Origin: Betaproteobacteria bacterium
Lineage (GTDB): Bacteria > Pseudomonadota > Gammaproteobacteria > Burkholderiales > SG8-41
Assembly: GCA_021732605.1 (NCBI GenBank)
Contig: JAKFUS010000005.1
Span: 1-33,721 of the forward strand
Reading direction: 5' to 3'
DNA length: 33,721 nt
Of this stretch, positions 3,850 through 11,708 are shown in pieces. The notes under the pieces are model-generated. The model was not told where the DNA came from. It ran no database searches and was given only the letters and a program-made list of their open reading frames with translations. Positions within the stretch are counted from its first letter, which is position 1, and every line of letters starts with the position of its first letter. Made by a program: the position numbers and the translations under genes.

Positions 3850-3907
3850 AGCTGGGGATCATAACCGCATGCGATACTTATGGTGGGATTATGGCAGGAG
3901 CATGTGC

Positions 3908-5233
3908 ATGTCCGATCACGGCACCAACCCGCACCGCATCGTCATTGTCGGCGGTGGCGCCGGCGGCCTCGAACTCGCGACGCGGCTGGGCGACAGCCTC
4001 GGTCGCCGCGGTACTGCGAAAATCACCCTGATCGACTGTTCACGCACCCATTTGTGGAAACCGCTGCTGCACGAAGTCGCCGCCGGCAGCATGGATGTCG
4101 ATCAGCACACGCTGGATTATCTGGCACAGGCGCGCTGGCACCATTTCCGTTTTCGCCTCGGCAGCATGGCCGGGCTGGACCGCGAACGCCGCGTGGTGCA
4201 GGTTGCGCCCACCCATGACGAGGAGGGCCGGCTGCTGATCGGTGAGCGCGAGATCCGTTACGACACGCTGGTTATTGCCGTCGGCAGCGGCACCAATGAT
4301 TTCGGCACGCCGGGCGCGCAGGAACACGCGATCAGCCTCGACACGCCGGCGCAGGCCGAACGCTTCCACAACCGGCTGATCAATGCCTGCATCCGCGCCA
4401 ACGCGCAGCATGAAGCGCTGCGTCCCGAGCAACTGCATGTCGCAATCATCGGCGCCGGCGCCACCGGCGTCGAACTCGCTGCCGAACTGCACCACACCAC
4501 GCGCGAACTGGTGGCCTTTGGCCTGGAGCGCATCGACGCCGAGCGCGACATCCGCATCACGCTGATCGAAGCCGGGCCACGGGTATTGCCGGCGTTGCCG
4601 GAACGCCTGTCCAAATCCACGCTGGAATTGCTGGAAAAACTGCGCATTCAGGTGCTTACCAACGCACGCGTCACCGCGGTCGAAGCCGACAACGTGCTGA
4701 TCGCCGACGGCCGCAGGATTCCCGCTGAATTGACGGTATGGGCGGCCGGCATCAAGGCGCCGGATTTCCTCAAAGACCTCGCTGGCCTCGAAACCAACCG
4801 GCTCAACCAGTTGGTGGTGACGCCGGAACTGCAGACCACGCGCGACCCGAATATTTTTGCGCTGGGCGACTGCGCCGCCTGCGCCTGGCCCGGCCGCGAG
4901 CACAGCGTGCCGCCGCGCGCGCAGGCCGCGCATCAGCAGGCGTCGCTGCTGGCCTCAACCCTGAGCCGCCGGCTTGCCGGCAAACCGGCACGCCCCTTCA
5001 TTTACCGTGACTTCGGCTCACTGGTTTCGCTGGGCAATTATTCGACCGTCGGCAGCCTGATGGGTGCTTTGATCGGCGGCAGCCTGTTCATCGAAGGCCT
5101 GTTTGCGCGGTTGATGTACGTGTCGTTGTACCGCATGCATCTCTATGCACTGCACGGATTCGCCAAGGTGTTTTTCGACACGCTGGCGCGACTGATCACG
5201 CGGCGCACCGAGCCGCGCGTCAAACTGCACTGA
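3908..5233 (+). CDS. ndh: Type II NADH dehydrogenase (NDH-2)
   Basis: 441-residue FAD enzyme passing electrons from NADH to quinone at the inner membrane without pumping protons. The FAD dinucleotide-binding motif IVIVGGGAGGLELA lies near the N-terminus, and a second Rossmann motif (VAIIGAGATGVELAAEL) lies near residue 180 for NADH. TVWAAGIKAP and IFALGDCA (the FAD-contacting GD motif) follow. The C-terminal LFARLMYVSLYRMHLYAL is the amphipathic membrane-anchor region of NDH-2. An upstream ATG at 3869 is possible, but ATG 3908 has AGGAG (3896-3900) at ideal spacing and gives the usual short N-terminus. It converges on the P460-cupredoxin gene with a 31-base gap. The length is normal and no key residue is missing. 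Confidence 0.93.
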   Translation: MSDHGTNPHRIVIVGGGAGGLELATRLGDSLGRRGTAKITLIDCSRTHLWKPLLHEVAAGSMDVDQHTLDYLAQARWHHFRFRLGSMAGLDRERRVVQVAPTHDEEGRLLIGEREIRYDTLVIAVGSGTNDFGTPGAQEHAISLDTPAQAERFHNRLINACIRANAQHEALRPEQLHVAIIGAGATGVELAAELHHTTRELVAFGLERIDAERDIRITLIEAGPRVLPALPERLSKSTLELLEKLRIQVLTNARVTAVEADNVLIADGRRIPAELTVWAAGIKAPDFLKDLAGLETNRLNQLVVTPELQTTRDPNIFALGDCAACAWPGREHSVPPRAQAAHQQASLLASTLSRRLAGKPARPFIYRDFGSLVSLGNYSTVGSLMGALIGGSLFIEGLFARLMYVSLYRMHLYALHGFAKVFFDTLARLITRRTEPRVKLH

Positions 5234-5264: not shown

Positions 5265-6089
5265 CTATTTGGCCGCGACCTTCGCTGCAACCTCCACCGT
5301 ACCCTTCATCGCCGGATGCAGTGAGCAGATGTAGCCGAAAGTACCCGCCTCATCGAATTTGATCCCCGCACTTTGCCCCTTCAGCAGGACGGCTGTCTGC
5401 TGCGGTTTGCCGGTGACGACGATCTGGTGCGGTGAATCATCCGCGTTGGTCCAGGTGACTGCCTGCCCCGCGGACACCCTGACGGTACCCGGGCCGAACT
5501 TGAACCCGGCGATATTGACGTCACTTGCACCAGTTCTCAAGGCAACGGCTGAAGTGGGGAAAGTGCCGGAGAGTTTCGCCAGGGAAATCACGAAATCCTG
5601 TTTCTCATGCGGCTTGTGGCAGACAAAACAATTCTTGATGTTGGCGTTGGCTTTTTCGTTGGGCTGGCCGTCAGGCGTAAACGATGCGTACTGCCAGTCG
5701 CCGTTGCGCCACTCTTCCGGCACCGCGGCGCCCCAGCCCGCGCGTTTTTCCATGACCGTCACCGCGCTGAGTTTGTCTTTGACAAAGCGGCCGTCAGTGC
5801 CTTTGGCCGGCTCGCCTTTTTCATCCACTTTCGCGGCGTAAATCGCCATCACCAGAACGGTGCCATCCGGGATCGGCTTCCCCTCGCGCACACTTTTGAC
5901 CACCGCCGCGCTGGTATAAAGCTCGCGATACTGCTTGCTGTCGTGGCGATCGACGTCGCCGTAACGGGTCCAGGTCTCAAATCCCTGGGGAAACCGGATC
6001 TGCTCAGGACCGGCATTCACGTTCACCACCACCAAGCCGCCCGCTACTGCAACCATCGCCACCAACAGCATGCTTTTATACGGTTTCAT
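5265..6089 (-). CDS. Periplasmic cytochrome P460 domain fused to a type 1 copper (cupredoxin) domain
   Basis: 274 residues. An N-terminal hydrophobic signal sequence (about residues 5-26) implies export. Residues about 30-175 resemble the cytochrome P460 family: FPQGFETWTRYG start, DGTVLVMAIY strand, and a c-type heme motif CFVCH at 154-158 followed by KPHEKQDF. Residues about 185-270 form a plastocyanin/amicyanin-like domain with predicted copper ligands H221 (SPHQ), C255, H258 and M261; the C-x2-H-x2-M spacing is that of amicyanin/pseudoazurin. P460 cytochromes oxidise hydroxylamine or bind NO; the fused cupredoxin may be the built-in electron acceptor, which is inference. Whether the heme-crosslinking lysine is present cannot be settled without alignment. 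A strong AAGGAGG precedes the ATG. It is monocistronic and convergent with ndh. An alternative is a stress or NO-binding c-prime-beta-type protein. Confidence 0.85.
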   Translation of the reverse strand: MKPYKSMLLVAMVAVAGGLVVVNVNAGPEQIRFPQGFETWTRYGDVDRHDSKQYRELYTSAAVVKSVREGKPIPDGTVLVMAIYAAKVDEKGEPAKGTDGRFVKDKLSAVTVMEKRAGWGAAVPEEWRNGDWQYASFTPDGQPNEKANANIKNCFVCHKPHEKQDFVISLAKLSGTFPTSAVALRTGASDVNIAGFKFGPGTVRVSAGQAVTWTNADDSPHQIVVTGKPQQTAVLLKGQSAGIKFDEAGTFGYICSLHPAMKGTVEVAAKVAAK

Positions 6090-6205
6090 GAAACCCTCCT
6101 TGATTTACGGGAAAACCGACGTACCACAGCGGTGAAAGTTACATGGTATCCGTCATTACGTGTTGCATAACAAATTACTGCGGGAAATATCCCCGCGGGC
6201 TGCGA
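6090..6205 (-). promoter_or_regulatory. P460-cupredoxin upstream region with FNR/DNR-like dyad
   Basis: On the minus strand, positions 6160-6173 read TTGTTATGCAACAC. This is close to a 5-4-5 palindrome and matches 7 of the 10 fixed bases of the FNR/DNR consensus TTGAT-N4-ATCAA. It lies about 70 bases before the start codon. A weak -10-like GATACC (plus 6145-6150) follows 17 bases after TTGTTA, so the dyad also overlaps a possible -35. N-oxide or oxygen control would suit a P460 gene, but the match is imperfect. Confidence 0.3.
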
Positions 6206-7837
6206 TCAGGGCAAGGAGATTTCCGGCGCCGCTGCGGAACGCGTGCCCGGCAGGGGCGGATTGTCTGTCGAGTGGTAGGTGAACACGGCCGAGAACTTGG
6301 TCTGCGCGGCGCGATTGTGCCCTGCAGCATGAAACAGCCGGCAGTGAAAAAACAACACATCGCCGGGATTCAGTTCCGCATACACCTGCGTTGTCAGCAA
6401 GGCTGCATTTTCAGCAGCATCAGTACGCAAAAATTGCGCGGCATCAAGCCGTGCCGCATCGAAATCCATCATGTGCGAACCCGGCAGCAGCAACAGGCAG
6501 CCATTGTCGCGGCGCTCTTCGCCCAATGCCAGCCACACCGACACCAGCTCGGGACGTTCAAACGACCAGTAACGAATGTCGCGGTGCCAGCTAGTGAGAC
6601 TGCTATACGCGGGATCCTTGGTCATCACGCAATTGTGATGCGCCTGCGACAAAGCGATCTGTGGTCCAAGCAGTTGTTTCAGGCGGGCAGCGATGGGTAA
6701 TGCTGTGGCCCACTCGCGGAACCCGGCATCACGGACGTAAGCCTGCAGCAGCCGCCGCACCGTGCGTCCGCCCGGCGCCTCCAGTGACTGCGGTGCACCG
6801 GGATATTGCGTGTCGGCTTCGTACTCGACGGGCGGCACGGCTAAGGCCAGATCGCGTTCGGCGCAGGCGCGCAGGCGCGCGCAGCCATCGGCCGGCACCA
6901 GGCCGCGCACGATCTGGTAACCGTCGCGCGAAAACTGCGCGACTTGTTCCGGCGTAAATGAGTCATTCATGGCTGTGGACGGCTTGCGGAAAAACCACCA
7001 GTAAAAAAACGCCGCGCTGAGCAGCAGCGTCAGCAGAGAATACACGGGATCAAGCGCACCGGCGGTGAACACCGACTCCGTTTCAAACACTGAATCGTCG
7101 TAACGAACGACCAGCGCCAGCAGCAGGTTGTTGCCGGCATGCGCGCCGATCGCCAGCTCCAGCCGGCCGTCGCGCAAAGCTATGGCGCCGAGAAACAGGC
7201 CCATGACAAAATAATTGGCGGCCATGATCGCCAGCCCGTAAGCCGCGACCTCGGGGTTGAGAAGATGCGGCGCGGCGAACAGCAGGCCACTCAGTATCAC
7301 CAGTGCCGGGGGATAGCGCAGCAAGCGGCCCAATCCCTGCAGCACATAACCGCGGAACACCAGTTCCTCGGCCGCGCATTGCAGCGGCGTCAGCAACAGC
7401 GCGGCCAGTGCGAACGGCAACCAGAGTTGCAAATCCAGACTCCAGGCATAACGCCCGGGATACAGCAGGTGTTCGATGACGGAAAACACCAGTGACAGCG
7501 CGACCCATACCGCTGCACCCCGCACCATTCGCCTCCAGTCGATCTGAGCGTACGGCGTCACCAGCGTGCGCCAGGGGCGGCGATGCAAGACCACGACCAC
7601 GGCAACAACAGCCACCAGCAGCATCAGTATGCTGACATTGATGGCGACGAATTCGGTGATGGTGCCGAGCGGCAGGTATGACAGTATAAAACCATAGGCA
7701 TAAGCACCGCCGATGATCCAGCTTGCAGCGATGACCATAATGCCCAGCAGGTAACGCCACCAGCTATTGCCGCCGATGTCCGCTGCCGCGAGATAACGCG
7801 CGGCGGGCGAAGTGAAGAAATGCAACGCGCGGTACAA
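6206..7837 (-). CDS. CPBP intramembrane protease - phytanoyl-CoA dioxygenase-like fusion
   Basis: A single 543-codon frame with two parts. Residues 1-289 are a polytopic membrane protein of the CPBP/CAAX (Rce1-like) protease family: EELVFRG with the E157-E158 pair, FAAPH (H191), and GAHAGNN (H233, N237), the metal and catalytic motifs in the usual order, with several hydrophobic helices. Residues 290-543 match PhyH-type Fe(II)/2-oxoglutarate oxygenases: FTPEQVAQFSRDGY start, SWHRD (H418, D420), LPGSH, GDVLFFHCRLFH with the distal His probably H503, and a downstream HNR region. The second part begins MNDSFTPEQ exactly as a free-standing PhyH would, but no stop separates them and no Shine-Dalgarno precedes that internal ATG (6968-6970). 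The start is a TTG two bases after the metH stop, suggesting translational coupling. Fusion or internal initiation is undecided; substrates are unknown. Confidence 0.8.
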   Translation of the reverse strand: MYRALHFFTSPAARYLAAADIGGNSWWRYLLGIMVIAASWIIGGAYAYGFILSYLPLGTITEFVAINVSILMLLVAVVAVVVVLHRRPWRTLVTPYAQIDWRRMVRGAAVWVALSLVFSVIEHLLYPGRYAWSLDLQLWLPFALAALLLTPLQCAAEELVFRGYVLQGLGRLLRYPPALVILSGLLFAAPHLLNPEVAAYGLAIMAANYFVMGLFLGAIALRDGRLELAIGAHAGNNLLLALVVRYDDSVFETESVFTAGALDPVYSLLTLLLSAAFFYWWFFRKPSTAMNDSFTPEQVAQFSRDGYQIVRGLVPADGCARLRACAERDLALAVPPVEYEADTQYPGAPQSLEAPGGRTVRRLLQAYVRDAGFREWATALPIAARLKQLLGPQIALSQAHHNCVMTKDPAYSSLTSWHRDIRYWSFERPELVSVWLALGEERRDNGCLLLLPGSHMMDFDAARLDAAQFLRTDAAENAALLTTQVYAELNPGDVLFFHCRLFHAAGHNRAAQTKFSAVFTYHSTDNPPLPGTRSAAAPEISLP

Positions 7838-7839
7838 GG

Positions 7840-11547
<3,708 letters not shown>

Positions 11548-11708
11548 CGACGTCAGGAGGCGCGAAAAGGCGCGATTGTGGCCAGAAAGGTCATAGGGAA
11601 AGGCGCGAATTTTATCATGGGCCGGTCCCCTTCCCGGCGCATTTGGCCGGGTTGCCGGCACCGCCTATAATGCGTTTTTCCCATTTGCCCCATTCGCGAC
11701 CCAAAGCC
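11548..11708. promoter_or_regulatory. Divergent metH / rhodanese promoter region
   Basis: For metH (minus), a -10-like TAAAAT lies at 11609-11614 without a good -35. Three copies of AGGCGCGA (plus strand) at 11558-11565, 11568-11575 and 11601-11608 lie between that box and the metH start. They are spaced 10 and 33 bases apart, so they lie on nearly the same helix face. They could be regulator sites in the metH leader, or chance GC-rich repeats. The rhodanese promoter is listed separately. Confidence 0.4.
11643..11671 (+). promoter_or_regulatory. Sigma-70 promoter of the rhodanese gene
   Basis: TTGGCC (11643-11648), a 17-base spacer, then a consensus TATAAT (11666-11671). The start of transcription would be near 11678, giving a leader of about 30 bases before the ATG at 11709. 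Confidence 0.65.

Follow-up and report, generated by a model that had tools for sequence, protein, structure and literature searches.

A predicted cytochrome c'-beta fused to a type 1 copper domain in Burkholderiales, possibly a self-wired peroxidase

Contig JAKFUS010000005.1 of the betaproteobacterial assembly GCA_021732605.1 (Burkholderiales, family SG8-41) carries, within the 33,721 nucleotides analysed here (the window), a minus-strand gene for a protein of 274 residues that joins two metal-binding domains. From its sequence, this protein is predicted to be a cytochrome c'-beta, a member of the non-cross-linked branch of the P460/c'-beta superfamily, fused to a C-terminal type 1 copper domain that would act as a one-electron carrier. 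We tentatively favour a function as a self-wired periplasmic peroxidase that may remove periplasmic peroxide at a single heme. The gene and its parts are as follows.

5265..6089, minus strand: gene for the fusion protein (274 residues), a putatively exported c'-beta heme/cupredoxin protein; stop codon at 5265-5267
6094..6101, minus strand: ribosome binding site AAGGAGGG, placed by counting along the sequence
6009..6089, minus strand: residues 1-27, hydrophobic signal-like N-terminus with low model confidence; export and cleavage are predicted
5586..5990, minus strand: residues 34-168, domain of the cytochrome P460/c'-beta fold (PF16694 profile match)
5616..5630, minus strand: residues 154-158, heme c motif CFVCH, read from the sequence
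5289..5522, minus strand: residues 190-267, amicyanin-type cupredoxin domain (PF00127) with ligands H221, C255, H258 and M261

An earlier note on this DNA, which named no strand, had described a P460-like c-heme and a complete set of type 1 copper ligands in one chain, encoded by a gene with its own ribosome site. Every motif position that it gave is exact, AAGGAGGG lies just 5' of the ATG, and the matches in Pfam, the PDB and the alignments agree on the two domains. Residues 34-168 match the Pfam profile Cytochrome_P460 (PF16694, E 3.1e-27), a match on which the earlier note had made its idea depend, and residues 190-267 match Copper-bind (PF00127, E 2.4e-11); both pass the cut-off. Since PF16694 covers cytochromes c'-beta too, its name being also borne by the c'-beta chains 7s5o and 7ead, this match does not imply P460 chemistry, and an assignment as a true P460 by profile name is ruled out. 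The second domain has the His, Cys, His and Met ligands and the cupredoxin fold of a type 1 copper protein, as seen from the PF00127 match, the conservation of the ligands and fold matches to amicyanins. It shares with amicyanin the ligand set and the short C-x-x-H-x-x-M loop. Unlike amicyanin, it is part of a fusion, and amicyanin proper is rejected because the equivalog profile scores 54.5 bits against a cut-off of 110.2; the best amicyanin chain in a sequence search of the PDB reaches 45.9 bits (4.1e-11). The methylamine dehydrogenase profile PF02975 finds no match in the genome and is equally silent in 14 control genomes, which makes this result uninformative.

We built a structure model with AlphaFold2 from the window protein and 12 relatives. 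The mean predicted local distance difference test (pLDDT) score is 80.8 and the predicted template modelling score (pTM) 0.72, with residues 1-27 and 159-165 below 50. Comparison of such a model with characterised P460 and c'-beta proteins had been suggested in the earlier note, and it is a cytochrome c'-beta that ranks first by fold: Foldseek against the PDB gives as top match the protein from Nitrosomonas europaea (NeCP-beta, 7s5o; E 1.7e-13, template modelling (TM) score 0.78 on the target). The same chain is the closest in the PDB sequence search (E 3e-28). Amicyanins also match in the Foldseek search, with TM scores of about 0.7 on the target. This match and the alignment of the ligands give indirect support for copper ligands that come together in the model, the second point on which the earlier note had made its idea depend.

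Cytochromes P460 are defined by a cross-link between the heme and a lysine (PMC11928373, a 2025 review cited here throughout from the part of it that was available). According to this review, the lysine, carboxylate and cap positions in solved members are K70, E96 and F41 in NeP460, K78, D102 and R50 in McP460, and M79, A109 and R46 in NeCP-beta. We mapped these residues by HMMER alignment (for 7s5o, chain numbering plus 20). The equivalents of Met79, Ala109 and Arg46 of NeCP-beta are Met81, Thr111 and Arg48 in the window protein; counted on the printed alignment, Lys78 of McP460 also falls on Met81, and Arg50 of McP460 falls on Arg55. Either Arg48 or Arg55 may be the cap. With NeCP-beta the window protein therefore shares not only the fold and the c-heme motif but also Met at the cross-link site, Arg at the position that is the cap in NeCP-beta and the lack of a distal carboxylate. 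NeCP-beta differs in being a single domain without copper and in having Ala where the window protein has Thr111 and Arg55. McP460 (6hiu) and NeP460 share the fold and CXXCH, and McP460 has Arg equivalents of R48 and R55; unlike the window protein, it carries Lys78 and Asp102 where Met81 and Thr111 stand. The protein hence combines the P460 fold and a c-heme motif with no lysine for a cross-link, as a cytochrome c'-beta does, and lacks the two residues, lysine and distal carboxylate, that would complete a P460.

The same pattern holds in a joint alignment of 90 rows, comprising 42 copper fusions including that of the window, 15 cytochrome c fusions, 30 single-domain relatives and 3 PDB sequences. 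Left out were L001, L028, L086-L105, L111, 10 duplicate loci and the loci with no match across the required range (partial and copper-only rows). The heme-crosslinking lysine, which the earlier note had proposed to look for, is absent from all 42 copper fusions, where position 81 is L in 33, M in 4, I in 4 and F in 1. Nor does any of them carry an acid at position 111 (T 28, N 6, A 4, G 2, F 1, V 1). Among the single-domain rows position 81 is M in 22, K in 7 and V in 1. The seven Lys81 rows have Glu two residues before a conserved Met, where McP460 has Asp, and they group with McP460 (support 99/100) apart from the copper fusions. From these two observations we conclude that the alignment can separate the two kinds of protein. 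Because MAFFT places a gap at column 111 in the P460 rows, McP460 included, the carboxylate site was set through Ala109 of NeCP-beta and the spacing to the conserved Met.

Both metal sites are maintained. Each of the four copper ligands is kept in 42/42 copper fusions, and C154, C157 and H158 are kept in 41, the remaining row (L126) having a gap. R48 is present in 41 (one gap) and R55 in 40 (one His, one gap). In L126 (genome G513) the stretch with the heme motif is missing between two pieces that are out of register, which could be an assembly error or decay. In 13 rows of alignment A1, Pfam finds the P460 domain in all and Copper-bind in 12; among these rows, L012 ends at a contig edge before the copper domain. 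The closest homologue of the window fusion, L002 (a record titled Burkholderiales bacterium metagenome-assembled genome (MAG)), has 97% protein identity and differs by 54 synonymous and 9 non-synonymous codons. The non-synonymous and synonymous rates are dN 0.014 and dS 0.37 overall, 0.009 and 0.33 for the heme part, and 0.014 and 0.44 for the copper part. The excess of synonymous changes and the low dN in both parts argue for a real gene in which both domains are maintained by purifying selection.

A tree of just the heme domain (145 columns for 90 rows, flagged by the program as few for so many rows) places 41 of the 42 copper fusions together with the single-domain L079 on one branch (support 100/98). 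Since L079 (genome G445) sits inside the fusion clade and no copper remnant was detected downstream of it, it probably reflects secondary loss of the copper domain. L015, an Acidobacteria MAG fusion of 31% identity, stands outside the main branch on a long branch of its own. The fusion label changes three times on the tree, and the starred branches force at least two changes (gains or losses). A single clade of all 42 fusions is, however, not rejected by the approximately unbiased (AU) test (p-AU 0.298), so that an independent origin of the L015 fusion is not established.

A second kind of fusion occurs in the same superfamily. Fifteen rows (L036, L037, L080-L082, L128, L129, L139-L141, L143, L145, L146, L149 and L150), from genomes of the window's order and from the search of the Rokubacteria phylum, carry an extra N-terminal domain, identified by Pfam in 2 of the 15 (L036 and L037) as class I cytochrome c. 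All 15 have a conserved Met in this added domain, which we take to be a candidate axial (sixth) ligand of the cytochrome c heme. Together with L039, which has no cytochrome c in the same open reading frame (ORF), they form a separate branch (support 99/96). Like the window protein, they join the c'-beta heme module to an electron carrier; they differ in the carrier and its position, in their clade, in having Ala, Val or Leu at position 81 and in a residue 48 that is mostly Phe. The separate clade implies that the c'-beta heme module has been joined to two unrelated electron carriers. This supports electron exchange at the heme in general and says nothing of its direction.

The two domains of the copper form could cooperate as follows. 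The exported apoprotein would receive heme c and copper. Its ferric heme would be five-coordinate, with an arginine at each of two positions that are caps in relatives, and would bind a small ligand, hydrogen peroxide being the likeliest. This would give rise to high-potential ferryl states. Cu(I) of the cupredoxin domain would reduce these, and the copper would be re-reduced by donors of the respiratory chain. Type 1 copper of the amicyanin kind has a positive potential. That of the heme in McCP-beta is about -205 mV (PMC11928373). With these values copper cannot reduce the resting heme but can reduce a ferryl, and transfer from copper to ferryl would be downhill. The same review reports that NeCP-beta forms a ferryl with H2O2, acts as a guaiacol peroxidase (kcat 20 per s) and does not oxidise hydroxylamine (NH2OH), and that removal of the lysine in the K70A mutant gives NeP460 peroxidase-like activity. 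It is these activities, together with the direction of electron transfer from copper to ferryl, that lead us to favour a peroxidase. Di-heme cytochrome c peroxidases, whose electrons come from a separate cupredoxin or cytochrome c, would resemble the fusion in reaction and electron source. They are of a different family; the window protein has a single CXXCH where they have two, and its donor is fused.

Several observations weigh against a peroxidase. The activity of NeCP-beta is modest and its physiological role unsettled. Nor are the arginines a mark of peroxidases: McP460, which oxidises hydroxylamine, carries Arg at both corresponding positions (48 and 55) and uses the second as its cap, single-domain rows carry R48 in 25/30 and R55 in 16/30, and the cytochrome c fusions combine R55 (14/15) with Phe at 48 (12/15). 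With 33 Leu81 against 4 Met81, the copper fusions are not exact copies of NeCP-beta. The low-confidence stretch 159-165 of the model sits just after the heme motif, and no peroxide-stress gene was recognised among the neighbours.

An NO oxidase, which like an NO sink had been among the ideas of the earlier note, is an unlikely alternative in our view. Ferric heme would bind nitric oxide (NO), water would attack, nitrite would leave and the ferrous heme would pass its electron to the fused Cu(II), giving a periplasmic NO detoxifier in a bacterium that is not known to nitrify. Transfer from a heme near -205 mV to type 1 copper is the spontaneous direction, and the pocket positions are polar (Arg, Arg, Thr/Asn). 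According to the review, an NO-binding role has been proposed for cytochromes c'-beta, yet in its available part no c'-beta is reported to carry out this reaction (PMC11928373). No NO-handling gene was recognised next to the fusion gene either. In the draft genome NirS has no match (the profile control was positive in 2/14 genomes), and NirK has a weak match of 56.6 bits, far below its cut-off of 296.3 (control positive in 7/14 genomes).

Similarly doubtful is a sink or sensor that binds NO or carbon monoxide (CO), in which the cupredoxin has no other task than to control the heme's redox state or to dock to a partner. In a P460 that lacks the cross-link, the axial His is rapidly displaced by NO, as happens in NO sensors (PMC5872139). 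Against this stand the polar pocket positions (Arg, Thr), which are not of the all-hydrophobic gas-binding type, and the almost invariant conservation of both metal-ligand sets. In addition, copper at a positive potential would tend to hold the heme ferric.

It is quite improbable that only the cupredoxin is functional, in copper storage, copper delivery or electron transfer for another enzyme, with the heme domain as a relic or assembly partner. The copper ligands are indeed the most conserved feature, and L126 has no heme motif. However, the gap in L126 may stem from faulty sequencing or assembly, CxxCH is kept in every other copper fusion, dN is no higher in the heme domain than in the copper domain, and the clade member L079 has retained the heme domain alone. 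Least probable of all is the lead idea of the earlier note, a hydroxylamine oxidase with a built-in electron acceptor: the P460 fold, the Pfam name and the chemistry of an acceptor fit, but the residues at both required sites and the published mutants rule against it, since every cross-link-deficient P460 mutant and pro-enzyme characterised to date is inactive and the K70Y mutant binds NH2OH without turnover (PMC11928373). Profiles for AMO and HAO find no match in the genome, and this blank result says nothing because the control searches were silent too.

The two-domain order, for which the earlier note had proposed a search across genomes, is patchily distributed: it turns up in Burkholderiales, in Rokubacteria and in a single Acidobacteria MAG. 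A fusion spanning both domains is present in 11/399 genomes sampled from the order and in 17/74 genomes of the family, plus one that is split over two contigs; one of the 17 covers residues 58-268. Among the 21 genomes of the window's genus it is found in three, in one of them split on two contigs, and among 369 genomes sampled from the class only in the window's own. In the phylum of the Rokubacteria MAG L006 it occurs in 14/95 genomes, one of which (G561) has an internal TAG, with 3 more that are partial or split. All named records with the fusion are MAGs. Two genomes of the order with the fusion are each a single contig (G058, 4.0 Mb; G795, 5.4 Mb), which speaks against a binning artefact. 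The source genome itself, a draft assembly whose 75 contigs total 3.48 Mb (96.5% complete), has no PF16694 match besides the fusion protein. One fusion (L008) comes from a record titled Klebsiella pneumoniae MAG; in the tree it falls among proteobacterial, mostly Burkholderiales copies, and the label may be wrong.

The neighbouring genes in the window are listed below.

3869..5233, plus strand: convergent flavoprotein gene of the pyridine nucleotide-disulphide oxidoreductase type (Pyr_redox_2, Pfam), presumably a type II NADH dehydrogenase
6206..7837, minus strand: upstream neighbour, one reading frame that joins a CPBP/Rce1-like membrane protein and a PhyH-type dioxygenase (Pfam)
7840..11661, minus strand: a gene that we take to be metH (methionine synthase), a conserved neighbour in the family

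The gene stands roughly alone, as had been noted earlier, with 116 bp to the next gene on the same strand and 31 bp to the convergent gene. The metH-like gene (in relatives, too, presumably metH, as recognised from sequence) lies beside the fusion in 12/14 family loci (exceptions L090 and L096) and in L002, whose neighbours are the same as those of the window. In at least 6 of these 13 loci a PhyH-like gene lies between the two. The 6206-7837 ORF of 543 residues has a CPBP/Rce1-like membrane protease domain at 142-239 and a PhyH dioxygenase domain at 302-514; its counterpart in L002 has 549 residues, and in five other listed loci the PhyH-like gene there encodes some 260 residues. In Rokubacteria L006 and L007 the fusion gene follows genes that we take to encode ATP synthase. 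Neighbours differ in the other lineages that we looked at. Across the 29 loci compared, at least 13 have the metH-like and at least 6 the PhyH-like gene. No shared functional partner emerges, and a functional operon is rejected.

That the gene is portable, as the earlier note had it, is not borne out. metH adjoins most family loci, and although 53 of 72,556 plasmid records match the query in part, none does so over more than 80% of its length, so that we reject a plasmid gene. The patchy presence within the genus and the different neighbours in other lineages are facts that lean towards mobility. Three Rhizobium plasmid hits (H4-H6) match the heme domain under features named 'cytochrome P460 family protein', together with a 'DUF4405 domain-containing protein', a possible membrane partner.

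A targeted literature search, with most subscription papers outside its reach, found no fusion of a P460 domain to a cupredoxin described in titles or in the opening lines of abstracts; the architecture may already be entered in domain databases. PMC11928373 contains none of the words fusion, fused, copper, two-domain and multidomain, and the structurally characterised P460/c'-beta members in its table are single-domain proteins from nitrifiers, a methanotroph and Thermus. An anammox encapsulin paper (PMC6934571) was rejected as a prior description since, in the part available, its sole mention of P460 is the title of a reference. The outlook of the review leaves the peroxidase-like activity of NeCP-beta to future investigation.

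For this family, the fusion to electron carriers is in itself a clue to electron exchange at the c'-beta heme. A gene label 'cytochrome P460' on such fusions should not be taken to mean that they oxidise hydroxylamine or produce nitrous oxide (N2O). The copper fusion offers one soluble protein in which electron exchange of the heme could be measured directly, with the blue-copper colour as an internal reporter. It is conceivable, at somewhat less than an even chance, that the c'-beta heme serves as a catalytic module and has been wired more than once to one-electron carriers, and that the copper form represents an undescribed class of single-chain heme-copper oxidoreductase, with peroxide or NO as its substrate in non-nitrifying bacteria.
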